From positions 1-34,458 of the forward strand of contig JAJQGB010000006.1 in NCBI GenBank assembly GCA_021200775.1: a DNA stretch of 34,458 nt. The letters are read 5' to 3'. This stretch comes from Oscillospiraceae bacterium. GTDB lineage: Bacteria > Bacillota > Clostridia > Oscillospirales > Ruminococcaceae. Positions 5,309 to 33,877 of this stretch are shown piece after piece. The notes under the pieces are model-generated. The model saw nothing but the letters and a program-made list of their open reading frames with translations, had not been told where the DNA came from and searched no databases. Both the position numbers and the translations under genes were made by a program. Each line of letters begins with the position of its first letter. Positions within the stretch are counted from its first letter, which is position 1.

Positions 5309-5358
5309 TTAAGCAAGCCCCGCTTGGGATTTGTTTGATGGACGATTATAGCGGATTA

Positions 5359-5389
5359 AAAAAGCACTTCCGGGATGGGAGTGCTTTTT
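5359..5389 (+). terminator. intrinsic terminator of the GH5 gene
   Basis: The arms AAAAAGCACT (5359-5368) and AGTGCTTTTT (5380-5389) form a stem ending in a T run. The A-rich 5' arm makes it bidirectional, so it can also end the minus-strand MNT/HEPN transcript. Confidence 0.85.
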
Positions 5390-5414
5390 AATATTATCAG
5401 CGCATTTTTTGTGA

Positions 5415-5573
5415 CTAATCTTCTCCGTCCACTTTCTCCACAATTCCCGCAAAGAATCTCTTGACTGTGAGTAGCTCGTCCGTTGCGATATCCCAGATAA
5501 TTTTGTAGTCAAGAGTCCCATACCGGTGGGCGCAGACATTGCGGAGCTGTTTGAAGTTCCGCCAGTCAATCAT
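5415..5573 (-). CDS. HEPN (DUF86/HepT-like) protein, N-terminal half missing
   Basis: A 52-residue reading frame matches only the C-terminal half of a DUF86/HepT HEPN protein. It contains LRNVCAHRYG, the conserved RN-x3-H-x-Y ribonuclease motif (Arg11, His16), followed by TLDYKIIWDIATDELL, the usual last helix region. Family members are normally about 110-140 residues, so the first two helices are absent. The ATG lies inside the end of the MNT gene (8-base overlap of TATGATTGA), which suggests coupled translation. HEPN toxins are RNases neutralised by AMPylation from the paired MNT protein; whether this shortened form folds or cleaves RNA is unknown. It may be the remnant of a deletion that joined the MNT 3' end to the HEPN 3' half. 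Confidence 0.7.
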   Translation of the reverse strand: MIDWRNFKQLRNVCAHRYGTLDYKIIWDIATDELLTVKRFFAGIVEKVDGED

Positions 5574-5886
5574 AAATACACTTCCGCTCCTCAAGAACTC
5601 TCTTGATAAATTCTTCGTTGATGGTGACGGTGACCGGGTTGTAGAGGGCGTCCTTTGTGACGATGTCGATTTTTTTGTCGACGCTGTCCTCTATGTCACT
5701 GAAAAAGCTACAATATTTCAAGCCGATGGGTTTTGAGAACTCGACGTAGAAGTCGATGTCGCTGTCTTCAGTAGCCTCATTTCTTGCATAGGAGCCAAAA
5801 AGGTAAACCTTATCCGCACCGTACTTCTCCGCAATCGGACGTACCTTCTCAGCAATCTCTTTTGTTGTGTAAATGTCGGTGTTCAT
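5566..5886 (-). CDS. MNT-type nucleotidyltransferase (MntA-like antitoxin)
   Basis: This 106-residue minimal nucleotidyltransferase carries the GS-x10-DxD signature (GSYARNEATEDSDID, Gly31-Ser32 to Asp43/Asp45). MntA proteins AMPylate the partner HEPN toxin near its RNase motif and so act as antitoxin. The length is normal. The ATG at 5886 has AAAGGAG seven bases upstream. The next gene is a half-length HEPN. No clear promoter of its own is seen. The start codon is only about 32 bases from the duplicated lysS stop codon at 5919-5921, so before element insertion this pair would have followed lysS directly and could have been read from the greA-lysS promoter. Confidence 0.88.
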   Translation of the reverse strand: MNTDIYTTKEIAEKVRPIAEKYGADKVYLFGSYARNEATEDSDIDFYVEFSKPIGLKYCSFFSDIEDSVDKKIDIVTKDALYNPVTVTINEEFIKRVLEERKCIYD

Positions 5887-5918: not shown

Positions 5919-5948
5919 TTTATTTATCCAAACTCTTCATCGTCGGGA
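5919..5948. repeat. left att-like direct repeat (orphan lysS 3' end)
   Basis: This is identical over 30 bp to 16333-16362. Read on the minus strand it encodes P-T-M-K-S-L-D-K-stop, the C-terminus of LysS, with no lysS body attached. Flanking bases diverge on both sides. Confidence 0.85.
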
Positions 5949-6054
5949 TTTTTAATGAGAGCTGTTCGCTATGCTTCGTGGTGCTTCGGGATGCGGTTTT
6001 TACTGCAAAGTCTCCCGTTCATCATGCTTCGTAAAGCCCCATTATCATCGCACA

Positions 6055-6095
6055 TTTGATGTCAATTTGCTGTCATTTAAAGAATTTTGCTGTCA
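6055..6095 (+). promoter_or_regulatory. three direct repeats, candidate integrase arm-binding sites
   Basis: TTTGATGTCA (6055-6064), TTTGCTGTCA (6066-6075) and TTTGCTGTCA (6086-6095) start 11 and 20 bp apart, about one and two helical turns. They lie between the att core and the integrase gene. Tn916-type integrases bind short direct repeats at such positions through their N-terminal domain. Confidence 0.6.
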
Positions 6096-6103
6096 GGCAA
6101 AAC

Positions 6104-6116
6104 GGCTCGTCGAGCC
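6104..6116 (-). terminator. short GC stem after int
   Basis: GGCTCG-T-CGAGCC lies directly after the integrase stop codon. On the minus strand it is followed by GTTTTG. It is a short stem and could be a weak terminator. Confidence 0.4.
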
Positions 6117-6120
6117 CTTC

Positions 6121-7221
6121 TTAAAATACGTTCAATTTTGCCGCCAATCGTTCAAACGATTCATGCTTTTTCTGCTCAGTTGCTTCGGCATAAATATCCA
6201 TTGTTGTCTGGATGTCCTTATGCCCCATGATAGACTGGATGACCTTCAGATTGGTCTCCTGCTCGCAAAGCCTTGTGCAGAAAGTGTGCCGCAGGTGGTG
6301 TGCCGAAAAATCAGGCAACATCACAGCTTCACGGTGTTCCTTCTTTGCGTTGACTTCCTCACCGACGTTGTAATCAGCGACTATCCGTTTGATTGCACGG
6401 TTGATGGATTGCGGATTCGGAACATTTCCGAAGCGGTTGCAGAAGATAAATCCGTGCATACCGTCAATCTCAGTGGTGTTCCAACCGTTTTCCGCCTGTT
6501 CTTCCCTCAGCATATCAAAGGCATCTTTCACGGAATCAAGCATCGGTATTGTCCGTTCACCGGCTTTTGTTTTCGGCTTTGAGACGTGCCAAACAGAAGC
6601 ACGATTTTCGCCCACCGGATAATACACCAGACTATGGTTGATGCTGATAACACCGTTTTCATAGTCGAGGTCTTCCCAGCGGAGTCCCAATGCCTCACCA
6701 ATGCGGCAACCCGTTCCCAAAAGGACGGTGAATATTGCCCACCAGTGACAGTAAATCGGGTGGTTAGCGATATGCTCCATAAACGCCCGTTGTTGCGGAA
6801 TTGTCAAGGCGTGTCGCACACCCGAAGTCTTGTCAGAGCTTTTCTTAATCTCAGCCATTACGCCATCTGCGGGATTGTTCCGGATGATGTCGTCCCGAAC
6901 TGCCAGTTGGAATGTCGGATGCAGAAGTGTATGTATGCTCTCAAGCGTGTTGACTTGGATGTTCTGTTTTTCCAACAGATAGTTGTAGAATCCGAGCACA
7001 TCCGAGAATTTGACGTCCGCAATCTTATTGTTGCCAAAGGTATCACGGACAAAACGGTCATACATATACAGGTAATTGCTTTTAGTGGTCTGCCTGAGAT
7101 TGGTTTTCAGACTCATATACCGGTCAAACACGAAATTTACTGTGGCTTTTCCGGCGACATAAATATCCAAGCCGTCCAACTGATTTTTAGCTAACTCTGC
7201 TTCCTTTTCTCTGAGGGTCAC
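6121..7221 (-). CDS. Tn916-like tyrosine integrase, normal start codon missing
   Basis: The site-specific recombinase has a complete active site: Arg173 (GTGCRIGEALGL), Lys in KPKTKAGER (215-223), HHLRH (His308/Arg311), His334 (IMGHKD) and nucleophile Tyr344 (MDIYAEAT). A SAM-like core-binding domain spans about 28-120. The annotated start is a GTG without a Shine-Dalgarno sequence. The same frame stays open about 31 codons further up (to 7317) and encodes an arm-binding-like segment, RLGTGIDTYTDPLGRRKYLY, as in Tn916 Int. That extension has no ATG, GTG or TTG before an in-frame TAG at the end of the preceding gene. Either a rare start is used or a small deletion removed the original start. 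It is transcribed with the upstream excisionase-like gene and sits next to the att repeat. Confidence 0.85.
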   Translation of the reverse strand: MTLREKEAELAKNQLDGLDIYVAGKATVNFVFDRYMSLKTNLRQTTKSNYLYMYDRFVRDTFGNNKIADVKFSDVLGFYNYLLEKQNIQVNTLESIHTLLHPTFQLAVRDDIIRNNPADGVMAEIKKSSDKTSGVRHALTIPQQRAFMEHIANHPIYCHWWAIFTVLLGTGCRIGEALGLRWEDLDYENGVISINHSLVYYPVGENRASVWHVSKPKTKAGERTIPMLDSVKDAFDMLREEQAENGWNTTEIDGMHGFIFCNRFGNVPNPQSINRAIKRIVADYNVGEEVNAKKEHREAVMLPDFSAHHLRHTFCTRLCEQETNLKVIQSIMGHKDIQTTMDIYAEATEQKKHESFERLAAKLNVF

Positions 7222-7312
7222 AAGGTCATTTGCGTAGAGATACTTACGTCGCCCAAGCGGGTCTGTATAGGTATCAATACCCGTACCAAGCCTTTCACGA
7301 TTCTTCTTCCGA

Positions 7313-7522
7313 TTAAGCTACCCGGAATGTTTCAAGGTACTTTTCTAAAATCTCGCAGTTCACAAGGGCAACCTTGTCAATTTTATAGACGGCTTTCGCC
7401 TCTTTCGCCAACTCCTGAAACTTGGTCAATCCCATGCTGTACAGCTCTGCGCCCTCCTGATAGCGGACGAATTTCTTTGCCATCTTCTTCGTGGCTTCAA
7501 CGTCTCTGCAACTATAACCCAT
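7313..7522 (-). CDS. excisionase-like winged-helix protein (DUF6462-like)
   Basis: A 69-residue protein with the core KFVRYQEGAELYSMGLTKFQ...YKIDKVALVN, the pattern of small excisionase / DUF6462 proteins that precede int in Tn916-like elements. These bind DNA and direct excision. The ATG is preceded by AAAGGAG. The stop TAA at 7313-7315 is out of frame with int but overlaps the point where the integrase frame opens, so the two genes are packed unusually tightly. Confidence 0.75.
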   Translation of the reverse strand: MGYSCRDVEATKKMAKKFVRYQEGAELYSMGLTKFQELAKEAKAVYKIDKVALVNCEILEKYLETFRVA

Positions 7523-7545
7523 ATGCTAATCTCCTTTCATTTCAA

Positions 7546-8298
7546 TTATCTTTCCAATCCTGTTTTTCGATGTTGCGTGTTCGGCTTGCGAGTGTACATA
7601 TTCAGCACTTCAGGCGGTATCCTCTCCAGAATCTCCACCGCCTCCAGATACTGATGCTTGAGCCTCTCATCCTCAAGCTTCTTAAGCACACTCTCTTTCG
7701 AAGACTTCTCAAGCGACTGCGTGAGCTGTTCGTTTTTCTTTTTCAGCTTCTTGTTCTCGTTTGTAGTAGTCGTAAAAGCGACGTTGTACTTTTTCAGAGT
7801 AGTGTGCATCTGCTCAACTGCAGGGATATACTTGTCCAAGAGCTTCTCAATCTCGTCAATCCTGCCCTTGGCATTGAATAAGTTAGCACCCGAAATCAGC
7901 TCCTCCAACTTCTCTTTCTGAGCAGTCAACTGTGTCATCTCCTTAAACACCCTCGGTGGAATGTGGTCTCGTCCCGTAAGGGATGCACTCTCTCCACGTT
8001 CCAAATCCGGGTACTTCCTGACCATATGCTCCCAGAACCTGTCCTGCCATTCGGTCAGCTTCTTTTTGTTCCCAACGATTTCTTTGGCACTGAGCCTACC
8101 GTCCTCAGTCAGCGGAACAAACGACAAGTGTATATGCGGCGTTTTCTCATCCATATGTACGGTTGCGGATTTGTTTGTGTCCACATTGGGGTTGCTTGCA
8201 TACTTCTCTTTCGTTCTCTCATTGTGAGCCTCTATATTTGAAATCTCCGGTCCCTTGTACTTTGCAAAGCGGAGAATTGCATATTGTGCTTTAGACAT
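7546..8298 (-). pseudogene. MobV-family relaxase with internal in-frame deletion
   Basis: The 250-residue frame begins MSKAQYAILRFAKYKGPEIS, the standard start of clostridial MobV (Pre/Mob) relaxases, and continues to ERTKEKYASNPNVDTNKS. It then jumps to the metal-binding motif HMDEKTPHIHL (His48, Asp50-Glu51, His55, His57). In intact members roughly 70-80 residues separate these parts; they are missing here, so the nuclease domain is probably broken. The C-terminal half (about 120-240) is a Lys/Glu-rich coiled coil. AGGAGG precedes the ATG. The frame is still open, so a stable protein could be made, but oriT nicking is doubtful. It is co-oriented with the excisionase-like and integrase genes. 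Confidence 0.8.
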
Positions 8299-8339
8299 TT
8301 TTACCTCCTATATAGCTGTGTTTTGGGTTAAAATCTGTC

Positions 8340-8368
8340 TTGCTTTTATCATCCTGATATGGTATACT
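8340..8368 (+). promoter_or_regulatory. promoter of the DUF6440 gene
   Basis: -35 TTGCTT (8340-8345) and -10 TATACT (8363-8368) have a 17-bp spacer. It is divergent from the relaxase gene. Confidence 0.65.
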
Positions 8369-8413
8369 AATTATTGTTTACGAATACAAATCGGAGTTTA
8401 CGGAGGCAATAAG

Positions 8414-8590
8414 ATGGCGAGAGAAAAGAGATTTGAAGAAATATTTAAAGAGGGAAGTGACTTATCAGAAACTCACAAAATCATTGTCGATAAGGAAACA
8501 GGAGTGAATTATCTTGTTTGGAAAAACGGATATGCTGGTGGTATTACACCCTTATTGGATGAACAAGGTAATCCAGTTATCACCAGATAA
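8414..8590 (+). CDS. DUF6440-like small protein
   Basis: A 58-residue protein with the pattern KIIVDKETGVNYLVWKNGYA and GGITPLLDEQGNPVIT, recognisable as the DUF6440 family of small proteins common on Firmicutes mobile elements. Function is unknown. The open frame reaches further upstream, but the ATG at 8414 has GGAGG at 8402-8406 and begins the conserved part (MAREKRFEEIF). A promoter lies at 8340-8368. It is the only short plus-strand gene between the relaxase and the regulator region. Confidence 0.75.
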   Translation: MAREKRFEEIFKEGSDLSETHKIIVDKETGVNYLVWKNGYAGGITPLLDEQGNPVITR

Positions 8591-8689
8591 CTTCCAGTTT
8601 ATCACCCTGAACTTAACACATTTCTATATCCAAGAGCGACTTTAACCAGCCGCTTTTTTTGCGCCCATCTGGAGGTGATTATAATGGAT

Positions 8690-8890
8690 TTACTCAAGGG
8701 CAAAGAGATAATGGCTTGGGCATTCATGGGCAATACTTGCATCCGGGCGATAGGCAACCGGCAGTCTGTTTCGGACTACATCAGGCTTGCCCTCAATAAA
8801 ACTCCCGTCAAGCTTAAGTGTTCCGTTTGAAAGATGGCTGACCTCCTCTCTGAGTCGTTCAATCGCTTTTGCTTCTTCAAAAATATTCAT
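8690..8890 (-). CDS. small protein of unknown function (66 residues)
   Basis: The frame begins MNIFEEAKAIERLREEV, a charged amphipathic helix, and I do not recognise a family. Support comes from AAGGAG eight bases before the ATG and a minus-strand promoter (8932-8960). An opposing 48-codon plus-strand frame at 8684-8830 also has an excellent Shine-Dalgarno (GGAGGTGATTATA before ATG) and would give MDLLKGKEIMAWAFMGNT and onward. Only one of the two is likely to be a real gene. The divergent pairing with the Xre regulator resembles an immunity or lysogeny-type switch, but this is inference. Confidence 0.4.
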   Translation of the reverse strand: MNIFEEAKAIERLREEVSHLSNGTLKLDGSFIEGKPDVVRNRLPVAYRPDASIAHECPSHYLFALE

Positions 8891-8931
8891 TTTGATCTCC
8901 TTGATTTTTAGTTCCGATCGATCGTATGTCT

Positions 8932-8960
8932 ATTCTACGGCAAAAAAATATCGCTGTCAG
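8932..8960 (-). promoter_or_regulatory. promoter of the 66-residue gene
   Basis: On the minus strand, -35 CTGACA (8955-8960) and -10 TAGAAT (8932-8937) have a 17-bp spacer. The palindrome CGATCGATCG (8915-8924) sits at the expected transcript start. Confidence 0.5.
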
Positions 8961-9005
8961 TCTTCAAGCGAAAAACGTAAACAGCGACAATTTTGTTCCC
9001 CGTTA

Positions 9006-9034
9006 TTGCAAATTTGCACAGGGCATGATACAAT
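9006..9034 (+). promoter_or_regulatory. promoter and candidate operator of the Xre regulator gene
   Basis: -35 TTGCAA (9006-9011) and -10 TACAAT (9029-9034) have a 17-bp spacer. A perfect 12-bp palindrome, TGCAAATTTGCA (9007-9018), covers the -35 box and fits an autoregulatory Xre operator. A second dyad, TCGCTGT (8951-8957) / ACAGCGA (8981-8987), lies between the divergent promoters. Confidence 0.6.
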
Positions 9035-9054
9035 AAAAACAGGGAGATGATAAT

Positions 9055-9885
9055 ATGAATAACGACTACGAGATTGACAGAGACAGCATTGGCTACAAAG
9101 TGAAGACGCTTCGTGAAAGGGAGAATCTATCTCAGAAGGGGCTTGCGAAGCTTATTCATGTTACGCCGTCGCAAATAAGTAGGTTGGAGAGAGGAGAGAC
9201 GACAAACGTCGGCACCGACCTTCTGGTTGACATTGCGAGGCATTTCAAGGTCTCTACAGATTATTTGCTCGGACTTACACCTATTGAATCACAGAAAAGC
9301 TACGATATTTCGAGGCTTGGGCTTTCCACTGAATCCGTTAAAAGGCTTATGACACACAGGATTGATGTTGATGTTCTTAACAGGCTATTAGAGCATGAGA
9401 GGTTCCCACATTTCTGCACCCAGATACGCAACTACTTTGAGGGCGAAATGGCAGGCGGGTATATGTCAAGGAACGTGCTATTGGATTACGGAGAGACAAG
9501 CCTCTTGAGTTTGAAAGACAATCCCGATGTGAATAAGAGCGAACTGAAGAAAGACGTAGATCTCATACAAACATCCAAGATTGGCGAGAACGAGGCGGAC
9601 ATTGAAAAGCTTAGAAGTACGATAATGGCGATTCTCAGGGACATCAAGAAAGAGTTCCCGAATAAGAGAGATAGTGAAGTGGCGACCGCTAAAGCTGTTC
9701 AGATGATTTCAAGTGATTTATCCGGCATACCACCGAGGGAAGTTAATGAAGAAAAAGTAACTGATTCTGCGATGAAATACGTTGAAAGCGTTATACCAAT
9801 GGATGCCAAAACCCGTTCACGGATGAGGAGATTTGTCCTGTTCGCAATGAAGATATTCGGGAAGAAGCGGCAGACGGAAGACTGA
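9055..9885 (+). CDS. Xre-family transcriptional regulator
   Basis: A 276-residue regulator. Residues about 14-74 form an Xre/Cro-type helix-turn-helix (VKTLRERENLSQKGLAKLIH, then TPSQISRLERGE, ending DYLLGLT). The long C-terminal region (about 80-276) is helical, charged and not recognised. It may hold the signal-sensing or oligomerisation part, as in regulators of clostridial integrative elements. AGGGAG precedes the ATG. The gene has its own promoter with a palindrome over the -35 box, is divergent from the small gene at 8690-8890, and ends at a strong terminator. It probably controls element genes. Confidence 0.85.
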   Translation: MNNDYEIDRDSIGYKVKTLRERENLSQKGLAKLIHVTPSQISRLERGETTNVGTDLLVDIARHFKVSTDYLLGLTPIESQKSYDISRLGLSTESVKRLMTHRIDVDVLNRLLEHERFPHFCTQIRNYFEGEMAGGYMSRNVLLDYGETSLLSLKDNPDVNKSELKKDVDLIQTSKIGENEADIEKLRSTIMAILRDIKKEFPNKRDSEVATAKAVQMISSDLSGIPPREVNEEKVTDSAMKYVESVIPMDAKTRSRMRRFVLFAMKIFGKKRQTED

Positions 9886-9911
9886 TATACCTTTTCAAAA
9901 TGCCAAACAAA

Positions 9912-9940
9912 CAAGGGAGCCGACACCGACTCCCTTTTGT
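9912..9940. terminator. intrinsic terminator of the Xre gene
   Basis: AAGGGAG (9913-9919) pairs with CTCCCTT (9930-9936) around a 10-base loop, followed by TTTTG on the plus strand. Confidence 0.8.
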
Positions 9941-9987
9941 AACACAGTATTGAGTTTTTGTCCGACGGCTTTTTTGCAAAGGTATAA

Positions 9988-10020
9988 CACACTAGACTTT
10001 CCATCTGGGAAAGTCGTGTG
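9988..10020. other. long hairpin downstream of the mgtA operon
   Basis: The stem CACAC-TA-GACTTTCC / GGAAAGTC-GTGTG has 13 base pairs interrupted by one two-base bulge, with a 5-base loop. It lies between the Xre terminator and the mgtA-operon terminator. It lacks a T run and its role is unknown; an mRNA 3'-end stabiliser is possible. Confidence 0.5.
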
Positions 10021-10024
10021 CCAA

Positions 10025-10043
10025 AAGGGGATGCGTCCCCTTA
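10025..10043 (-). terminator. intrinsic terminator of the mgtA operon
   Basis: AAGGGG-N6-CCCCTT is followed on the minus strand by TTTTGG. It is located 26 bases after the stop codon of the microprotein gene. Confidence 0.7.
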
Positions 10044-10068
10044 TTGGATTAACCCCTTGAGATGAGAC

Positions 10069-10221
10069 CTATGCCTTCCTTTTCGGCTTCATCCCCCAGA
10101 AAACGGCATTCATGAGAAAGACAATCACTGCAACAACAGCCATGGACGCCCAGAAGCCAATATCTAATCCGAGAAATTCTGTTGTTCCGAAAAGCTTCAT
10201 CCAGATTTCAGTCCAGTTCAT
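10069..10221 (-). CDS. 50-residue single-pass membrane microprotein downstream of mgtA
   Basis: The short frame begins MNWTEIWMKLFGTTEFLGLD and ends VFWGMKPKRKA. Residues about 22-42 (GFWASMAVVAVIVFLMNAVF) form one transmembrane helix with a positively charged C-terminal tail. The Shine-Dalgarno AAAGGAGG is near perfect, and the start codon lies only 13 bases after the mgtA stop codon, so it is the last gene of the operon. Small membrane proteins are known to modulate or stabilise Mg2+ ATPases (MgtS and MgtR in enterobacteria). There is no sequence relation to those that I can see, so a partner role is inferred from position. Confidence 0.75.
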   Translation of the reverse strand: MNWTEIWMKLFGTTEFLGLDIGFWASMAVVAVIVFLMNAVFWGMKPKRKA

Positions 10222-10234
10222 GATTTAACCTCCT

Positions 10235-12988
10235 TTAAAGCAGCTCGCCGTAATGGCGGACATAGGCTTTTTTCAGACTTGTAGCCAGCAGCATATAAAG
10301 CAGAATGCAGGGAATCAGGTAGAGGAAGTAGCTCACAGGGAGCGCGACAAATCCGAGCATCGTACCAAACGGGGTAAACGGGATTATCGTGAGGACTGCG
10401 ATTCCCGTCATCGTCATGAGAGTAAGCGGCGCGGAAGCGTGACTCTGGATGAACGGGAGCTTCGGAGTACGAATCATGTGAATAACGAGGGTCTGACTCC
10501 ACATCGATTCAACGAACCATCCGGCTTGGAACATCGCCATATATCTGAATTGCAAATCTGCAAGCTCTGCACCGCTGAAATGGTTTGCAAGATCGTTATA
10601 AAGAACGCCGCCGGAAACAAACATCGGGCAGAAGACAAAATACATGAATATGTATGTAATGAAGTCGAAGATTGAACTTGTGGGACCTATCCAAATCATG
10701 AAGCTTCCAACGCTTGAGGCATCCCATTTTCTCGGAACGGCGATAATTTCTTCATCAACATTGTCCCACGGAATTGCCGTACAGCTCAGATCATAAATCA
10801 GGTTCAGGAATATGAGATGTATGCTCATCATCGGCAGGAACGGCAGAAGTGCCGATGCCGCAAGAACGGAAAACATATTTCCGAAGTTCGAGGATGCCGT
10901 CATCTTGATATACTTAATCATGTTGGCATAGGTCTTGCGACCCTCGATAATACCCTGCTCAAGAACCATCAGGTCTTTTTCAAGAAGGATAATATCAGCG
11001 GATTCTTTTGCGACATCAACGGCTGTGTCAACCGAAATTCCTATATCTGCCGATTTCATTGCGGCGGCGTCGTTGATTCCGTCTCCCATAAAACCTACCG
11101 TATGCCCGTTTTCACGGAGAACGGATACGATTCTTGCCTTCTGGTCGGGAGTGAGCTTTGCGAATACGTCGGTTGACTCTGCGGCTCTTGCAAGCTCTTT
11201 GTCCGTCATATGCTCAAGATCCGAACCAAGGAGCATATTTCTGACCTTGAGTCCAACCTGTGCGCAGATGGTGCGGGTGACTTTTTCGTTGTCACCGGTG
11301 AGGATTTTCGTGTGTACACCGTGAGCCTTCAAAGCCTTGATAGCGTCGGCTGTTGATTCCTTCGGAGGGTCGAGGAATGCAAGATACCCTATAAGCACCA
11401 TCTCCGACTCGTCCTTCACGCTGAAGACACCGGCGGATGGCGGATTGGTTTTGTGGGCAATGCAGAGAACCCTGAAGCCCTTGTCGTTCAGATCGTCTGC
11501 TGTGTCAAGGATTCTTTCCTTGACCTCATCGTCAAGAGGTCTGACCTCGCCGTCTATCTCTGCAAACGAGCAAACGGAAAGCATCTCCTCGACGGCACCC
11601 TTCGTAATCATCTGGGTTTTGCCCGTTTTGTCCTGAACAACGGTTGTCAGGCGACGGCGTGTGAAGTCGAAAGGAATCTCGTCAACCTTGACGTAGCTTT
11701 CAGACAAATCGGTAAGCTCGGGATTTTCGCTTTCTTCCTCCTCGGTTTTCCTGATTATTGCAAGATCCATCAGATTCTTATACCCGGTCTGGAAGTAACT
11801 GTTCAGATATGCGTGTCTGAGAACTCTCCCGTCCTCCTCGCCATCAACGTTGAGGTGATACTCCAAAACTACCTTGTCCTGAGTAAGAGTGCCGGTTTTG
11901 TCGGTGCAGAGGATGTCAATGGCTCCGAAGTTCTGAATCGAATTGAGATTTTTGACTATAGTCTGTTTTTTGCTCATCGAGACTGCGCCCTTCGCAAGGC
12001 AGGTTGTCACAATCATCGGAAGCATTTCCGGCGTGAGACCTACAGCTATAGATATTGCAAACAACAGTGCGGACAACCAGTCTCCCTTTGTCAAGCCGTT
12101 GATGACAAATACCAACGGTACCATTACCATCATGAAGCGAATCAGCACCCATGAGACGGCATTGACGCCTTTTGAAAAACTGGTCTCGACTGCTTCCCCG
12201 GCAACTGCCGAAGCCATAGAGCCAAACAGCGTATTGTCGCCTACACAGACAACCACAGCGGTTGCGCTTCCCGAAATAACATTACTGCCCATAAAGGCAA
12301 TATTGGAATAATCGGTCACAGTACCCATCGTTTCTGCCACGAAAGGTGTTTTTTCGATTGGCTCGCTTTCGCCGGTCAGGCTCGCCTGACTTACAAACAG
12401 GTCTTTGGATTCCAAAATTCTCACGTCTGCGGGAATCATGTCTCCGGCAGAAAGGTGAACAATGTCTCCGACAACCAACTCGTCAAGGGGAATTTCCGAC
12501 TTCGGCTCGTCTTTACGAGTGACGGTACAGGTGGTTGTTATCATTTTGAGAAGCTTTTCAGCCGCATTACCGCTTCTTGATTCCTGAACAAATCGGAGCG
12601 TTCCCGAAATCACAACCATTGTCATGATAATGACGACCGTCAGACAGTCAAAATCCTCCGGCTCACAGCCGAAAAGGGAAAAGTATGGGAAAATCATGTC
12701 GGTTATCGTGGATACGATTGCGAGGAAAAAGAGTATCGCCGTAAACGGATTCACAAATGCGCCCGCAAGCCTCTGGGGAAGCGTTTTCTTCTTTTCCTTT
12801 GTCACACGGTTCGAGCCGTACCGAATACGGCTTTCATGTACCGCCTCCGAATCAAGTCCCGAAAGAGTGGTTCCGAGATATTCAAGAACTTCTCCCGTCG
12901 GATTGGTTGCCGCAAATGCAAGTCTTGAGTTCTGTTCGTCACGGGTGACGGCTTTTTCCGTCATCCGGCGTAAAATTTCTTTTTTCAT
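10235..12988 (-). CDS. mgtA: P3B-type magnesium-importing ATPase, paralogue 1
   Basis: This 917-residue P-type ATPase is of the MgtA/MgtB class, which imports Mg2+ across the cytoplasmic membrane. Domains run as follows: N-terminal cytoplasmic region, first transmembrane pairs (about 80-135), actuator with TGES (205-208), TM3-4 with [11 protein letters not shown] (about 315-325), phosphorylation motif DKTGTLT with Asp363, nucleotide domain, TGDN and [16 protein letters not shown] hinge motifs, then six C-terminal transmembrane helices. Full family length. The ATG at 12988 follows AAAGGAGG. It is the fourth cistron position of the unit mgtA2, regulator, attenuator, mgtA1, microprotein. It is clearly paralogous to the 13595-16162 gene yet diverged along its whole length. 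Confidence 0.95.
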
Positions 12989-13026
12989 GTTACTACCTCC
13001 TTTGTCTTATTGCATTTTTATTCTAC

Positions 13027-13087
13027 AAAAAAAGCAAGGAAATTCACATGGCGTAAACCTTGCGATTTCCTTGCTAAAAGGCAAGAA
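13027..13087 (-). promoter_or_regulatory. candidate transcription attenuator before mgtA1
   Basis: On the minus strand, a perfect 11-bp stem AGCAAGGAAAT / ATTTCCTTGCT (13065-13075 and 13033-13043) is followed by seven T residues, an intrinsic terminator placed before mgtA1. The 5' arm can instead pair with TTCTTGC (13081-13087), which begins directly after the regulator stop codon, through GCAAGGAA (13067-13074) with one bulged base. The two hairpins are mutually exclusive, as in an antiterminator/terminator switch. Confidence 0.6.
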
Positions 13088-13579
13088 TTATATTCTGTCG
13101 TTGAACTTATAACCGATGCCCCAGATGGTGAGTATGTACATGGGAGAATCGGGATGCGGTTCAATCTTCTTCCGGAGCTTGCGGATAAACGCCATGATAT
13201 TGCTGTCATCCATCAGATACTCTGCGTCCCACACCGCCTGATATATCTGTTCCTTCGTGAAGACCTCGCCACGGTTCCTGGCAAGAAAGCAGAGGATATC
13301 GAACTCCTTTGGGGTCAGGACTATATCGTTTCCCGCTCGCGTTACTCTGCGTAAGACAGGGAATATTTTAAGCTCACCGCAGACAATCTCCGACAAATCC
13401 GAAGGCTGTGAAGCTCCGTTCAATTCAAGCATCAGGCTTCTTATCTGACCGCTCGTCAGGTCGGATATGGCTCTTGAGAGTTCTCCGGCGGACAGTGCAT
13501 CGGAGGGTGCCGCTTTCAGCTTATCTGAAAGCCATCCGAGTGTGAAAGCATCCATGCTGACAAGATCAATGTTTTTCAT
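13088..13579 (-). CDS. winged-helix (OmpR/PhoB-type) regulator without a receiver domain
   Basis: A 163-residue protein. The C-terminal 95 residues form a classical Trans_reg_C winged helix: VLTPKEFDILCFLARNRGEV, KEQIYQAVWD, a recognition helix around DDSNIMAFIRKLRKKIE, and the wing YILTIWGIGYKF. The N-terminal part (1-70) is too short and lacks the acidic pocket and phospho-Asp of a receiver, so it is not a normal response regulator and no kinase lies nearby. AAAGG precedes the ATG, 15 bases after the mgtA2 stop codon. Its place between two Mg2+ ATPase genes suggests it controls this operon; the signal is unknown. Confidence 0.85.
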   Translation of the reverse strand: MKNIDLVSMDAFTLGWLSDKLKAAPSDALSAGELSRAISDLTSGQIRSLMLELNGASQPSDLSEIVCGELKIFPVLRRVTRAGNDIVLTPKEFDILCFLARNRGEVFTKEQIYQAVWDAEYLMDDSNIMAFIRKLRKKIEPHPDSPMYILTIWGIGYKFNDRI

Positions 13580-13594
13580 ATCAGTGCCGCCTTT

Positions 13595-16162
13595 CTACAA
13601 GAGTTCCCCGTGATTTTTAAAGTAAAAATGCTTTGCTATGCTCACAGAACAGAGATATAGGATTACATCCAGAGCAAGGAATAAATAGTACCCGACAGGA
13701 AGTGCCGTGAGTCCGATGTAACTTCCGAGTGGCGTGACCGTGAGAACCGAAAGGAGAACCACTCCCACAATCGTGACTCCGAAGACCGATTTTGATGGTT
13801 TGCTCTGAACAAACGGGATTTTCGGCGTTCTCAGAAGATGCAAAATCATCACCTGAGTCCACATTGACTCAAGGAACCACCCGGTCTGGAACGTAGAAAT
13901 AAACGCAAGCTGACCGGCGGAATCAAGCTGTGAAAATGCTCCACCGCAAACGGCAGGACAGAGGACAAAGAACAAAAAAGCAAATGTGATTATGTCAAAT
14001 ACCGAGCTTATAGGTCCGAACCTGAGCATGAACCTTCCCAAGTGATTGCCGCTCCAACGAGCAGGCTTTTCAAGCTGTTCAGAATCCACATTGTCCCACG
14101 GTATTATCAGGCATAGGGTGTCATACAACAGATTCAGCAAAAGAAGCTGCAGCGATGTCATAGGGAAGAACGGCAGAAGAACGCTCGCCACAACCACAGC
14201 GATAATGTTGCCAAGGTTTGACGATGCGGTGATACTGATATATTTTGTCATGTTTGCAAACGCTTTGCGTCCTTCAAGGATGCTCCGCTTGAGGACATTC
14301 AGGTCTTTTTCGAGAAGAATCACATCTGCGCTCTCTTTGACCGCATCTGCGGCGGTGTCAACCGAAATTCCGACGTTGGCTCTCAGCTCAGCCGGAAGGT
14401 CGTTCATACCGTCGCCCATGAACCCAACATTATGACCGTTTTTTTGAAGTATCTCGATAATCCGAGCCTTTTGCTTGGGAGACAGCTCCGCAAAGACTTT
14501 CGTTTTCTCAACGCAAAGCGGAATGTCGTTCTTGGAAAGCCCCGCAAGATCCGCACCCGTCAGAACAAAGTCCGTCTCGATTCCGATTCGTGAGCAGATT
14601 GAAAGTGTCGTCTTCACATCGTCTCCTGTCAGAACCCGAACGTCTATGTTGAGATTTTTCAGATTTTTTATAGTTTCGGAAGCGCTCTTTTTCGGAGCGT
14701 CAAAGAACGCCAGATAACCGATAAGTATAAAGTCGGAATTATCGGAATCAAGTACCGATTGGGAGGTGTTTCTGTAGGCAACGGCCAAGACCTTCATTCC
14801 ATCTTCCGTGAGTTCATCAGTCACTGCGTGAACGCTTTGTATTGTGTCATCCGTAACCGAAACTCTTTCTCCACGGAACTCCGCGTAGCGACATTTTGAA
14901 AGAACGTTCCCGACACTGCCCTTGATGATGTGAAGATTGTCTTCATCACCTTTCAGCAGAATCCCTACATATTTGCGGTTATAATCGAACGGTTGCTCAT
15001 CCAAAAGAATGCTGTTTTGGGAAAGCTCTTCAAAATGTGCTTCCTGCCCTGGCATGGTTCCGTATTTGAGAATAGCCGTGTCGAGATGATTTTTGACTCC
15101 GCTCTGGTAATGACTGTTCAGGAAAGCATAATCAAGAACCATACTGCTCTCATTTCCGAGAATATCCATATAGTATTCGAGTGTGATTGTGTCGTCGGTA
15201 AGTGTGCCGGTCTTATCCACACACAGAATGTCCATGCTTCCGAGCGTCTGCATTGCGTTGATATTTTTGACAACGGTCTGCTCTTTACCCATCTGATGAC
15301 TGCCCTTAGCCAGACAGGCACTGATTACCATTGGGAGCATTTCAGGAGTGAGACCGACCGCCACGGAAAGAGCGAACAGGAGCGCTTCAATCCAGTTTCC
15401 CTGTGTCAGTCCGCTTGCAAGAAATACAACGGGAATCAGAATCGCCATAAATTTAATCAGAACCCAAGCGATAGAAGTGGAGCCACTGTCAAATCCACGC
15501 TTCTGTGAAAAGCTTTCCGTGTCAAGCCCGCCATAAACGGTATTTTTCCCGACAGCACGGACAATTCCCGCGCCCGATCCACCTGTAACTGTGGTACCTT
15601 GAAAGACTATATTTGTGTAATCGCTGAGCTTTTCCGGTCTGATTTGCGGCTCTCCGGCCTTCTTTTCGAAATTCTCGCTTTCGCCGGTTATTACAGACTG
15701 TGAAACAAACAGATTCTTCGATTCCGTGAGCTCAATGTCCGCAGGAATCCGATCTCCCGCTTCGATTCTGACAAGATCTCCGACAACCAGATCTTCGGAA
15801 GAAACCTCCTGCCAGATGCCGTCTCTGCAAACAGAAACGGTAGTCCCCGCCATCTGTGAAAGGCGGTCGGCAACGCTTTTTGCCCGAAGCTCCTGAATCA
15901 AGCGGATGATACCACCGAGAAGCATCATAACTATAATTATTATAACAGACGAAAAGCTCTGTCCGTATTTATCCGGCAAAAGAACGTCGGTAATCAGCGA
16001 AACAACCGCAAGAACTATCAGAATTATCGAAAACGGATTTATAAACGCCCTGCGAACACAGTGCCTGACGGTCGTTTTGCTCCTGCCACTCTGCCAGTTG
16101 CTCCCGTATTTATTTCTGTTTTCGGAAACCTGTTCCTGCTGCAACCCGGTCGCCTCTTTCAT
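13595..16162 (-). CDS. mgtA: P3B-type magnesium-importing ATPase, paralogue 2
   Basis: A P-type ATPase of 855 residues with the same architecture as its neighbour: TGES (159-162), [11 protein letters not shown] (about 268-278), DKTGTLT with Asp316, TGDD, GDGMNDLPAELRANVG as the hinge (the neighbour has [16 protein letters not shown]), and a C-terminal transmembrane block. The N-terminus is shorter than in paralogue 1. A TTG two codons upstream could extend the frame, but the ATG at 16162 is eight bases from AAGGAGG and is preferred. It is the first gene of the operon, behind an extended -10 promoter. The hinge substitutions suggest functional divergence; Mg2+ remains the likely substrate, though other divalent ions cannot be excluded. 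Confidence 0.93.
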   Translation of the reverse strand: MKEATGLQQEQVSENRNKYGSNWQSGRSKTTVRHCVRRAFINPFSIILIVLAVVSLITDVLLPDKYGQSFSSVIIIIVMMLLGGIIRLIQELRAKSVADRLSQMAGTTVSVCRDGIWQEVSSEDLVVGDLVRIEAGDRIPADIELTESKNLFVSQSVITGESENFEKKAGEPQIRPEKLSDYTNIVFQGTTVTGGSGAGIVRAVGKNTVYGGLDTESFSQKRGFDSGSTSIAWVLIKFMAILIPVVFLASGLTQGNWIEALLFALSVAVGLTPEMLPMVISACLAKGSHQMGKEQTVVKNINAMQTLGSMDILCVDKTGTLTDDTITLEYYMDILGNESSMVLDYAFLNSHYQSGVKNHLDTAILKYGTMPGQEAHFEELSQNSILLDEQPFDYNRKYVGILLKGDEDNLHIIKGSVGNVLSKCRYAEFRGERVSVTDDTIQSVHAVTDELTEDGMKVLAVAYRNTSQSVLDSDNSDFILIGYLAFFDAPKKSASETIKNLKNLNIDVRVLTGDDVKTTLSICSRIGIETDFVLTGADLAGLSKNDIPLCVEKTKVFAELSPKQKARIIEILQKNGHNVGFMGDGMNDLPAELRANVGISVDTAADAVKESADVILLEKDLNVLKRSILEGRKAFANMTKYISITASSNLGNIIAVVVASVLLPFFPMTSLQLLLLNLLYDTLCLIIPWDNVDSEQLEKPARWSGNHLGRFMLRFGPISSVFDIITFAFLFFVLCPAVCGGAFSQLDSAGQLAFISTFQTGWFLESMWTQVMILHLLRTPKIPFVQSKPSKSVFGVTIVGVVLLSVLTVTPLGSYIGLTALPVGYYLFLALDVILYLCSVSIAKHFYFKNHGELL

Positions 16163-16200
16163 AATCAAAGCCTCCTTGCTTTACAAAGCCCAGTGCTTCC

Positions 16201-16209
16201 ATTATACCA
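16201..16209 (-). promoter_or_regulatory. extended -10 promoter of the mgtA operon
   Basis: TGGTATAAT on the minus strand is an exact extended -10 element. The -35 region is poor, although TTGACT lies just upstream at too short a distance. The leader is only about 30 nt, too short for an M-box Mg2+ riboswitch. Confidence 0.6.
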
Positions 16210-16273
16210 TAAAAGTCAATGAGGAAATCTTGTTTTTTTCTTGTTCCTGGGAAGCAATGCGGTAATGCAAAAG

Positions 16274-16306
16274 AACCGATTGCTTTCAGATTGAGAGCAA
16301 TCGGTT
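16274..16306 (-). terminator. terminator after lysS
   Basis: The 11-bp arms AACCGATTGCT (16274-16284) and AGCAATCGGTT (16296-16306) are perfect, followed on the minus strand by CTTTTGC. It lies inside the element boundary, so the element brings or preserves a stop for lysS transcription. Confidence 0.75.
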
Positions 16307-16332
16307 TTACTTTGTTTTTGATTTGTTGTGAG

Positions 16333-16362
16333 TTTATTTATCCAAACTCTTCATCGTCGGGA
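16333..16362. repeat. right att-like direct repeat (lysS 3' end)
   Basis: This 30-bp segment is identical to 5919-5948 and contains the last nine codons and the stop of lysS. The gene is intact across it. Confidence 0.85.
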
Positions 16363-17911
16363 ACAAAAGAACATCCCTGATCGCCGGCGAGCCGGTCATG
16401 AACTGCACCATTCTATCGATGCCGAAGCCGATGCCGCCGGTCGGGGGCATACCTATCTCCAAAGCGTTCATGAAGTCCTCGTCGATGGAGTTCGCTTCGT
16501 CGTCGCCGAGTCTTATAAGCTCCTCCTGAGCTTCAAAGCGCTGGCGCTGGTCGACGGGGTCGTTGAGCTCACTGTAGGCGTTGCACATTTCGGCACGGCA
16601 GATGTACATCTCGAAACGCTCAACATAGTCGGGATTCTCCGGCTTGCGCTTCGTCAGCGGCGAAATCTCAACCGGGTGGTCCATTATGAATGTCGGCTGG
16701 ACGAGGTTCTCCTCAACATACTTCTCGAAAAGAAGGTTCAGGATATCGCCCTTGTGGTGGCGCTTCTCGTCAAATTCAAGGTGGTGCTCCTTCGCAATTT
16801 CGAAAGCCTCAGCGTCGGTTTTTATCTCAGAATAGTCGACGCCCGAATACTTCTTGACGGCTTCAATCATAGTGAGTCTCTCGAACGGCTTGCCGAGGTC
16901 GATAACTTCGCCGTCGTATTCAATCTGAGTCGAGCCAACGACGGTCTCGGCGATATGGCGATAGAGATTCTCCGCCAAATCCATCATTCCGTGGTAGTCG
17001 GTGTAAGCCTGATAGAGCTCCATCAGGGTGAACTCAGGGTTGTGGTGGGTGTCGACGCCTTCGTTGCGGAAGACTCTGCCAATCTCATAGACCCTGTCGA
17101 TTCCGCCGACAATGAGTCTCTTTAAATAGAGTTCGAGAGAGATTCTCAGCTTGACATCTTCGCCCAAAGAGTTGTAGTGGGTGACAAAAGGTCTGGCGTT
17201 TGCGCCGCCTGCGTTCTGGACGAGCATCGGGGTCTCAACCTCAACAAAGCCCTGCGAATCGAGCCATCTGCGGATTTCGCTGATGATTTTTGAACGAAGA
17301 ATAAACGTCTTTTTGACGTCCGGGTTGACGATTAAATCAGTGTATCTCTGGCGGTATCTCGTGTCCCTGTCTTTGAGACCGTGCCACTTTTCGGGGAGCG
17401 GAACCAAAGATTTTGTCAGAAGTGTAATTTTCTTCGCATGAAGGGAAATCTCGCCACGACGGGTTCTGAAGACAAAGCCCTCGATGCCGATGATGTCGCC
17501 GATGTCCCACTTTTTGAAGTCCTGGAATGTCTCCTCGCCGACGTCGTTCATCCTGACGTAGCACTGCATTCTGCCGGTGCTGTCCTGGATGTCAAGGAAG
17601 TTCGCCTTGCCCATGTCACGGCGGCTCATCATTCTTCCGGCAATTTTCCACGTTTCGGCGTGGATTTTTTCGAGCTCAGCGTTAAGAGCCTCTTCCGAAT
17701 CTCCGGCAAGCTCTTTCGCCTTCGCCTCTTCTTCCTCATAATGAGCCTTCAGCTCCGAAGTGGTGGTGTTGAAATCAAACTTTGTAATCTCAAAGGGATT
17801 CTTTCCGGCGGCTTTCAGAGCCTCCAGCTTGTCAAGGCGGATTTTGCGGAGCGAATTAACCTCCTCCACAGTCATTTCCTCACCGGAATTTTCCAAAATC
17901 TCTTCCGTCAT
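16334..17911 (-). CDS. lysS: lysyl-tRNA synthetase, class II
   Basis: LysRS charges tRNA-Lys in the cytoplasm. The 525-residue protein has an N-terminal OB-fold anticodon-binding domain (about 65-180), class II motif 2 (FRNEGVDTHHNPEFTLMELY) and motif 3 (GIGFGIDRMVQFMTGS near the C-terminus). A GTG five codons upstream lies in the Shine-Dalgarno region, so the ATG at 17911 after GAGGAG is the better start. It lies 21 bases after greA and is read from the same promoter. Its last nine codons form the 30-bp repeat used as the attachment site of the downstream element, and the C-terminus MKSLDK appears undamaged by the insertion. Confidence 0.97.
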   Translation of the reverse strand: MTEEILENSGEEMTVEEVNSLRKIRLDKLEALKAAGKNPFEITKFDFNTTTSELKAHYEEEEAKAKELAGDSEEALNAELEKIHAETWKIAGRMMSRRDMGKANFLDIQDSTGRMQCYVRMNDVGEETFQDFKKWDIGDIIGIEGFVFRTRRGEISLHAKKITLLTKSLVPLPEKWHGLKDRDTRYRQRYTDLIVNPDVKKTFILRSKIISEIRRWLDSQGFVEVETPMLVQNAGGANARPFVTHYNSLGEDVKLRISLELYLKRLIVGGIDRVYEIGRVFRNEGVDTHHNPEFTLMELYQAYTDYHGMMDLAENLYRHIAETVVGSTQIEYDGEVIDLGKPFERLTMIEAVKKYSGVDYSEIKTDAEAFEIAKEHHLEFDEKRHHKGDILNLLFEKYVEENLVQPTFIMDHPVEISPLTKRKPENPDYVERFEMYICRAEMCNAYSELNDPVDQRQRFEAQEELIRLGDDEANSIDEDFMNALEIGMPPTGGIGFGIDRMVQFMTGSPAIRDVLLFPTMKSLDK

Positions 17912-17932
17912 TATATCTCTCCTCACGGGAAT

Positions 17933-32337: not shown

Positions 32338-33096
32338 TCATGCCCTGCTCCTATGCTTATTCCTGACCTCAATCACCGTGAACGGGGTGTACATGAGGAC
32401 GAAGAGGAGAAGGAGGATGATTATGTAGCCGATGACGAAGAGGTCTTCGCCGAAGATACTTGTGCAGAATGAGGTTATCACGTTACCGTATGGGTCGTTG
32501 ATGAAGAAGAAGTTGGTATCTAAAATCTTATTTATCGGATATATCACAATGAGCATACCGGCAAGCACCGCAAGAACCTTCGGAAGCATTTTGATTTCCG
32601 GCTTGAAGCCGCCGGCGAGGAGCATGATTGGATAGCACACAAGAAGTATATGCAGCATTTCGGAGTCGATGTGGCAGAAGTTTGCAATAGGAAGAGCGCA
32701 CCATGTCGGGCTAAGAAGTGCAACCGCCGCACCGGGCAGGCAGAGTGCATATAGAATGTTCGCCGCAAGCTTGTTCGGGTGAATCCCGTACCATAGGCTG
32801 ATGAAGATGTTGACGCTACAGAGATGCAAAGGCAGGGTCTCAGGTCTCCATTGACCGGTTACGATGATGACGGTCTGACGGGAAGCTTCAACCAGAACGA
32901 TGAGAATTGCAAGCCCCAGCTCGAACTTTCTTCTCATTCCGGGAGAAGAACGGCGATAGATGACGGCGACAACAGCACAGATAACCACGCACAGAACAAG
33001 CCAGAAGATGTGCGTCGGGCTGAAAAGCGTGAATGACGTGTAGTCAGAACCATACTTATCCTGCATGGTGTAAACGGTGTACCAGAATTCGGACAT
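32338..33096 (-). CDS. TIGR02206/YwaF-like membrane protein, paralogue 1
   Basis: A 252-residue protein with about seven transmembrane helices and the family segments SFTLFSPTHIFWLV, LPLHLCSVNIFISLWYGIHP, and DTNFFFINDPYGN (a conserved NFFF turn before the last helices). Function of the family is unknown. The ATG at 33096 has AAAGGAG eight bases upstream and is preferred over one nine codons earlier that overlaps the preceding gene. It is a tandem paralogue of the gene at 33116-33877, separated by 19 bases. Confidence 0.87.
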   Translation of the reverse strand: MSEFWYTVYTMQDKYGSDYTSFTLFSPTHIFWLVLCVVICAVVAVIYRRSSPGMRRKFELGLAILIVLVEASRQTVIIVTGQWRPETLPLHLCSVNIFISLWYGIHPNKLAANILYALCLPGAAVALLSPTWCALPIANFCHIDSEMLHILLVCYPIMLLAGGFKPEIKMLPKVLAVLAGMLIVIYPINKILDTNFFFINDPYGNVITSFCTSIFGEDLFVIGYIIILLLLFVLMYTPFTVIEVRNKHRSRA

Positions 33097-33115
33097 TGGG
33101 AGTCTCCTTTCAAAG

Positions 33116-33877
33116 TCACGCATGTGCGTGCTTCTTCTTATAAAGATTTATCAGAACAAACGGCGCATACAGCAGTGCCTCCACGATGGCGAGCAGAATT
33201 GCGTAGCCGATTATGAAGTAGTCCTCGCCGAAGATTCCGGCGCAGATGGTCGAAATCGGGTTGCCGTAGGCATAGCCGATGAAGAAGAAGTTGGTGTTAT
33301 AGCCTTCGTTAATCGGCGTGACAATCAGGCACATCGCCGCAAGTATTGCAAGAACCTTCGGAAGCTCTTTTAGTTCCGGCTTGAATTTTCCTCCGGCAAT
33401 CAGCATTATCGGATATGCGAAGATTACAATGTGCGCAATCGCCGAGTTCAGGTGGTTGAAGCTCCACACCGGAAGCATCGTCCAGGACGGGCTTATCAGC
33501 GCAAGTGCCGCACCGGGCATCGAAAGCGCATAGAGGAGATTCCCCGCAAGCCGGTTCGGATGGATTCCGTACCACGCACAGATAAATGCACTTATACTGC
33601 AAAGCTGCAAGGGAAGTGAGCTCACCCTCCACTGGTCGGTCAAAACCTCTTCAATCATCCGGGAAACTTCCAGAAACAGAGCGAACATCGAAAGCGAGAT
33701 TTCGAGCCCTCTTCTCACCTTTGCCGAAGATTTCCGGTACAAAAGAGAAATCCCCACGGTAAAAAGAAGGCACACCACCAGCCAGGTGATATGTGTTTTG
33801 TCAAACAGGTTGAACACCGTGTAATCATACCCATAGGTCTTGCTCATGGTGTATTCGGTGTACCAGAATTCGGACAT
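33116..33877 (-). CDS. TIGR02206/YwaF-like membrane protein, paralogue 2
   Basis: A 253-residue protein aligning along its whole length with the downstream paralogue: the same MSEFWYT-YTM start, YDYTVFNLFDKTHITWLV, LPLQLCSISAFICAWYGIHP, YNTNFFFIGYAYGN and IFGEDYFIIGYAI. About seven transmembrane helices and a basic C-terminal tail. AAAGGAG precedes the ATG. The two genes form a tandem duplication read as one unit, probably together with the small membrane protein gene upstream. No function is known. Confidence 0.87.
   Translation of the reverse strand: MSEFWYTEYTMSKTYGYDYTVFNLFDKTHITWLVVCLLFTVGISLLYRKSSAKVRRGLEISLSMFALFLEVSRMIEEVLTDQWRVSSLPLQLCSISAFICAWYGIHPNRLAGNLLYALSMPGAALALISPSWTMLPVWSFNHLNSAIAHIVIFAYPIMLIAGGKFKPELKELPKVLAILAAMCLIVTPINEGYNTNFFFIGYAYGNPISTICAGIFGEDYFIIGYAILLAIVEALLYAPFVLINLYKKKHAHA

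Follow-up and report, generated by a model that had tools for sequence, protein, structure and literature searches.

The 3' end of lysS in an Oscillospiraceae bacterium carries what is very probably a decayed integrative and mobilizable element (IME), which entered by tyrosine-integrase recombination and holds a horizontally exchanged Mg2+ operon in its cargo position. The window, as we call the whole stretch of 34,458 nucleotides analyzed here, is one entire contig of a 17-contig, 2.06-Mb genome (G000). The features discussed below are as follows.

5415..5570, minus strand: hepT remnant, approximately the first half deleted (alignment with G009 and G007)
5566..5886, minus strand: mntA-like antitoxin gene of the neighboring unit (PF01909; NF047752 at 43 bits, below the cut-off of 60)
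5919..5948, no strand: left (distal) att copy, the displaced lysS 3' end (30/30 identical to 16333-16362)
5949..6120, no strand: left end of the element, from the att core to int (conservation across int elements and a 230-bp remnant in G009)
6121..7221, minus strand: tyrosine integrase gene (int), N-terminally truncated (PF00589; alignment with the 405-aa genes of G006 and G011)
7319..7522, minus strand: xis-like ORF (DUF6462; PF20063, E 2.7e-27 over 7331-7525; ORF ends placed by eye)
7546..8298, minus strand: MobV-type relaxase gene (mob) with an in-frame internal deletion (PF01076 in two pieces)
8414..8590, plus strand: DUF6440 ORF (PF20037)
9055..9885, plus strand: Xre-family regulator (PF01381)
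10061..10077, no strand: backbone-cargo junction, where the terminator of the mgtA unit is lost (comparison with relatives)
10069..10221, minus strand: 50-aa membrane ORF downstream of mgtA1, its last codons altered by the junction
10235..12988, minus strand: mgtA1, Mg2+-translocating P-type ATPase (type IIIB) 1 (TIGR01524, 1129 bits, cut-off 611)
13088..13579, minus strand: winged-helix regulator without a receiver domain (PF00486 only)
13595..16168, minus strand: mgtA2, Mg2+-translocating P-type ATPase (type IIIB) 2 (TIGR01524, 849 bits, cut-off 611)
16272..16308, no strand: terminator-like hairpin of the mgtA unit, located between mgtA2 and lysS
16333..16362, no strand: right att copy, the lysS 3' end including the stop codon (repeat comparison and position of lysS)
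16334..17926, minus strand: lysS, the target gene, encoding a LysS without a C-terminal tRNA-binding domain

The att site and its target

Two exact 30-bp copies bound the interval, 5919-5948 and 16333-16362, with all 30 bases identical. A search of all 17 contigs yielded no third copy at up to three mismatches, and this restriction to two places in the genome excludes chance. The right copy spans the last codons and the stop codon of lysS, and the left lies beside a tyrosine integrase gene starting at 6121 (PF00589, E 2e-30), both as the earlier note had described. Its proposal of insertion at the lysS 3' end is now strongly supported by two relatives without the element (G012 and G007) and by Clostridia integrases that lie beside the same lysS codons. 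The part common to all aligned relatives is only the inner sequence CTTCATCGTCGGGA, or one near it, and not the full 30 bp. Together with the element-side flank (TTTTTAATGAG), the core is present in seven of the 31 genus genomes at up to three mismatches.

Integration falls within the lysS codons for FPTMK and the end of the gene is restored, as in lysS-specific elements. Judging from the chemistry of its family, the integrase would recognize the core TTCCCGACGATGAAG and exchange strands there. Recombination between attP and the FPTMK codons would have brought the element in beside the mntA-hepT unit, with the end of lysS rebuilt from element sequence; comparison with relatives shows that LysS retains its end and that the old host end stays beside int.

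The lysS locus in related genomes

lysS is nearly full length in 27 of the 31 genus genomes, the window's included; in G028 only 48 residues of its end are present, at the edge of a contig, and G024, G025, and G029 gave distant matches only. We compared 20 stretches around the gene, with the closest ten (G006 to G015) analyzed in detail; these close relatives are drafts. In G012, lysS is followed by one copy of the site, approximately 1.9 kb, and an aminotransferase gene, with the element absent from the 16 kb downstream. G007 has lysS, a core, mntA-hepT, a second core, and the aminotransferase gene. The direct succession of lysS and mntA, named in the earlier note as support for insertion, is thus found in G007; beyond hepT, however, there is a second core.

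Other relatives have different contents at the site. G009 reads lysS, core, a 230-bp ends-only remnant, core, mntA-hepT, core. In G015, lysS and a core precede FeoB, two DtxR-type regulators, and an HMA protein, then xre, mob, xis, a broken int, and a core. G006 has the aminotransferase gene, a surface protein, the mgtA operon, a core, mntA, a core, and int-xis-mob up to the contig end; its mgtA operon is outside the int unit, the island contains a gap, and lysS is on a separate contig. In G010, lysS is followed by C5 methylase and HNH genes, half a core fused to a 31-bp int remnant, the mgtA operon, and the contig end. The G010 operon runs over two contigs, and the sequence at its far side corresponds to the surroundings of the G012 operon, with 11.6 kb inverted. 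At lysS, the contents of G008, G011, G013, and G014 differ or are unfinished, and in G008 and G013 a surface-protein gene occupies the backbone position of the window's mgtA. In both Oscillospiraceae and Lachnospiraceae, modules are stacked at one conserved site in an essential gene; they include metal transport, toxin-antitoxin, restriction, and surface-protein genes.

An integrase family at lysS

The integrase was matched in 10 of the 31 genus genomes (E 1e-40). A wider search with an alignment of eight integrases gave at least 535 confirmed relatives, of which the best 80 were kept. The spacing between core and int was scored in the 79 loci with enough flank; the stretch of the remaining one, L200, ends too early. 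Among these best loci of at least 535, the core lies 155 to 215 bp after the int stop codon at up to four mismatches in 77 of 79, and shuffled cores do so, at the same tolerance, in 1.2%. The exceptions are L133 (345 bp, two mismatches) and L194 (316 bp, four mismatches).

lysS was found in all 24 genomes examined from the best 80 loci of at least 535 relatives, on the same contig as int in 16 and on a different contig in eight. A shared contig was recognized by its equal length, and for L171 within the locus itself. In each of the 16 same-contig pairs, int shares the strand of lysS and lies downstream of it, at a distance of 7 to 292 kb, and the long distances point to large or stacked islands at lysS. 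The Blautia parvula chromosome (G042; L157 and L216) has int and a displaced LysS domain 292 kb downstream of lysS, which suggests an island that is very large or stacked. By these sequence comparisons, the integrase family is lysS-specific and adjoins the same lysS codons across Clostridia.

A probably decayed mobilizable backbone

A site-specific recombinase and flanking att repeats, as in an IME, are present, though the int gene is truncated: relative to G006 and G011, a deletion of approximately 208 bp at 7273 removed the start codon and the first 28 residues. The relaxase has 250 aa compared with 327 aa in intact relatives, with 77 residues missing relative to G006 and a 13-bp overlap (8170-8182) at the break, and scores 93.7 bits against NF041497 MobV, slightly under the cut-off of 100. 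An IME has a complete relaxase gene of its own; the MobV-type gene here is 77 residues short, and we therefore call the element a decayed IME. As in an IME, no mating-pore families were found among the scanned ORFs of the interval (the short ORF at 8684-8830 lay outside the scan). The mobility genes that the earlier note placed on one side, and the two-ATPase Mg2+ operon that it placed on the other, are both there, but int and the relaxase gene are truncated. With these two genes incomplete, the window copy is probably immobile, barring a related integrase that acts in trans. Deletions affect int, the relaxase gene, and the neighboring hepT, and these three losses of approximately 200-230 bp within 3 kb of the window could partly be assembly faults.

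The backbone is int-xis-mob-xre, with species-specific cargo placed between xre and lysS: FeoB, a surface protein, or the Mg2+ operon, depending on the species. Two loci with a 327-aa mob, L133 and L122, also carry DUF5906 genes, and L133 additionally has a CHC2-type gene; neither kind was found among the scanned window ORFs.

A magnesium operon in the cargo position

Both ATPases pass the MgtA equivalog model TIGR01524 and are predicted from their family to be MgtA-type Mg2+ importers. The resemblance to MgtA (type IIIB) lies in these scores; the difference is that two paralogues flank a receiver-less regulator. The module of two type IIIB ATPases, regulator, and small membrane ORF would, if its family is a guide, add Mg2+ import. 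The 50-aa ORF has no match in Pfam or NCBIfam; it is also present in G006, G007, G008, G010, and G013, and a search by the same start did not find it in G012. The hairpin at 16272-16308 is in the same place in G006, G007, G008, G012, and G013 and is cut off in G010. When the window was scanned against Rfam for a Mg2+ riboswitch or other RNA, only a tRNA at the window edge reached the gathering score.

At E 1e-150, mgtA2 is found in seven of the 31 genus genomes, with no such match in the other 24. The operon occupies five gene neighborhoods: one near lysS (G000, G006, and G010) and one each in G007, G008, G012, and G013, where operon and lysS are on separate contigs. The mgtA flanks in the latter four have only pieces of 55-754 bp in common, and since the pairs G008/G012 and G007/G013 match only in short pieces beside the operon, we count four separate neighborhoods. 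Serine-recombinase sequence lies beside mgtA in G007 (Pfam) and G008 (DNA match), and short matching pieces do so in G012 (DNA match) and G013 (by eye). Mob remnants adjoin mgtA in G008 and G013. No lysS-type core was found around mgtA in these four genomes (stretches of approximately 20 kb, up to two mismatches of 14), which suggests another route of movement there.

Divergence at 4-fold sites between G000 and G006 is 0.117 for int, 0.177 for mgtA2, and 0.181 for mgtA1, compared with 0.396 for lysS and 0.455 for AAT. From G000 to the six other genomes, mgtA2 diverges by 0.148-0.177 and lysS by 0.223-0.396; mgtA1, in five of them, diverges by 0.154-0.258. Over all 21 pairs, mgtA2 spans only 0.138-0.177 while lysS spans 0.155-0.399. 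Values for mgtA1 (15 pairs) range from 0.144 to 0.335 and at times exceed those for lysS, as in G007-G008 (0.335 versus 0.184). In the closest species pair, G008-G013, mgtA2 (0.140) is similar to lysS (0.155). This discordance between mgtA and lysS points to horizontal exchange of the Mg2+ operon between species.

The view of the earlier note that the operon is cargo finds partial support: exchange between species and a variable cargo position speak for it, but the operon is separable from the integrase in G006 and G010. In G010 the distance to lysS is 2 kb and the integrase gave no match at E 1e-40, a placement beside lysS without int that the earlier note had listed as evidence against cargo and that is partly realized here. 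As far as these comparisons go, the Mg2+ operon is mobile and at the cargo position, yet not tied to this integrase.

The junction at 10061-10077 bears on how the two parts came together. The backbone match to G015, G008, and G013 stops at 10056-10065, the mgtA-unit match of relatives begins at 10077-10082, and this junction is seen in the window and in no relative. The operon terminator at the left boundary is kept in G006, G007, G008, G010, G012, and G013 and gone in the window. Such an imprecise junction suggests that the Mg2+ operon may be a later addition, joined for instance by a deletion between two accreted elements. Alternatively, and with somewhat less than even weight in our view, the mgtA operon was cargo of the IME itself and the two arrived together as one intact transfer unit. 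This would fit the lack of an att copy between xre and mgtA1, the shared att-flanking sequence that mgtA2 abuts in G000 and G006, and the mob remnants beside mgtA in G008 and G013. Against joint arrival, the junction cuts the small ORF and removes the terminator kept in the six relatives, the backbone of G008 and G013 has a surface-protein gene at the mgtA position, and the mgtA operons at lysS in G006 and G010 are outside or without int, with the xre-mgtA junction confined to the window.

An old chromosomal association of the mgtA operon with lysS, with mobility limited to the int-xre part, is unlikely. In its favor, mgtA is near lysS in G006 and G010 too, and mgtA2 and lysS diverge alike in G008-G013. 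However, the window's mgtA is flanked by the int unit and lysS, and no att intervenes; mgtA is absent from 24 of the 31 genus genomes (E 1e-150) and has other contigs and neighbors in four; and its divergence does not parallel that of lysS over the 21 pairs. Finally, chance or a duplication unrelated to the integrase is an extremely improbable source of the 30-bp repeat, given the conserved element-side flank and the core-int spacing in 77 of 79 relatives, and nothing was found in its favor. A decayed IME with a separately mobile Mg2+ operon in its cargo position is the reading that we retain.

Accretion of mntA-hepT units

We observed mntA-hepT type VII toxin-antitoxin units of approximately 650-790 bp with att cores at both ends and no recombinase, their distal flanks differing between species (L046 3474-4268; L042 15377-16183; L102 4792-5451; L105 9287-10081). 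The first approximately 65 bp of the element's left end are also present in these units. In G009 (L042 16154-16413), the 230-bp unit between two att cores consists of nothing but two element ends. CIMEs are typically far larger than the mntA-hepT unit or this remnant. Passages of a review of CIMEs and accretion islands describe att-bounded units without an integrase, stacked at one site (PMC5704250), and both the mntA-hepT unit and the G009 remnant resemble CIMEs as described there. The units in G007, G009, G013, and G006 have att at both ends and no integrase; the window unit has lost its distal att and half of hepT. An 86-aa ORF at 5309-5569 was rejected as hepT, being in another frame; the remnant is 5415-5570. 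We also dropped insertion order as a clock: the G006 mntA, although placed between int and mgtA, diverges about as much as core genes (0.441, from 34 sites only).

Likely domain exchange in LysS

In many Clostridia, LysS continues past its catalytic core into a C-terminal tRNA-binding domain (PF01588), and the FPTMK target codons lie where the two meet. In all 79 loci, the remnant that was displaced reads P[TA][MLI][KRQ] in the lysS frame (best core within 150-420 bp after int), as is partly expected from choosing the best core. The remnants comprise 46 short tails, 28 tRNA-binding domains (called by sequence motif, one confirmed by Pfam, PF01588), four HD-domain proteins (one confirmed), and one other. 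In L178, L179, L203, and L210, the remnant after int encodes a protein of approximately 220 aa and not a tRNA-binding domain, with an HD domain in L179. Among the 24 genomes examined, eight have LysS fused to the tRNA-binding domain plus a displaced copy (on another contig in G041 and G043), eight have a displaced domain with a LysS that lacks one, and eight have a short tail or HD remnant.

Replacement of a gene's 3' end has a precedent in prophage e14 at icd. We consider it likely that this integrase family mediates the exchange of a domain of an essential enzyme, with insertion severing the domain and some elements bringing a complete replacement. The severed LysS domain could be left as an ORF able to start at the att-core ATG, and elements may supply a replacement for it. 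Dorea phocaeensis (G038; L227) and Blautia sp. Marseille-P3201T (G039; L217) have lysS genes 80.1% identical over the 600 bp before the core; their attached domains are 100% identical over 474 bp, with full identity continuing to the end of the stretch (approximately 1.5 kb), and their displaced tails are 75.7% identical. The two elements are not identical throughout, as other common pieces match at 84-97%. Among the 28 pairs of genomes with a fused domain, four show attached domains 88.9-100% identical compared with 76.8-80.1% before the core, and the other 24 do not. Two observations go against simple replacement: the displaced tails of G038 and G043 are also close (94.6%), and the attached and displaced copies of G047 are 96.3% identical, which local duplication could produce.

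G002 and G003 are the only genomes of the window's genus in which the domain is fused; the window LysS is without it, and may have lost it by such an insertion. A search of the window's genome for a free lysS-derived tRNA-binding domain gave one match only, at 44% identity in a 673-aa frame that is probably metG. The accessible parts of the open-licence literature yielded no description of domain-sized exchange in lysS, and those of PMC6907783 and PMC12904643 do not mention lysS. Elements that replace, separate, or omit the tRNA-binding domain of LysS are a natural experiment, and the need for the domain is directly testable.

Known elements at lysS

lysS is already published as an integration target, and the window element therefore belongs to a known type. 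As described in sections of PMC4701971, streptococcal ICEs integrate in the lysS 3' end with a tyrosine integrase and direct repeats of 13 or 17 bp. The window element has a similar arrangement, in integrase type, in target, and in its direct repeats. Unlike it, with only a MobV-type relaxase gene, the streptococcal ICEs and decayed ICEs covered in those sections have conjugation modules (PMC4701971). The enterococcal vanD genomic islands Tn6711-Tn6713 have a 13-bp repeat, TTCCC(A/G/C)ACAATGA, inside the lysS 3' end, according to portions of PMC8301612. They share with the window element, whose core is TTCCCGACGATGA, a repeat within the lysS 3' end and, in those portions, the lack of conjugation genes (PMC8301612). 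They differ in size, at 112-126 kb compared with 10.4 kb, and in cargo (PMC8301612).

Elsewhere in the window, at 32338-33877, two adjacent similar membrane-protein genes form a tandem duplication, with DNA 71-81% identical over the repeated stretches.
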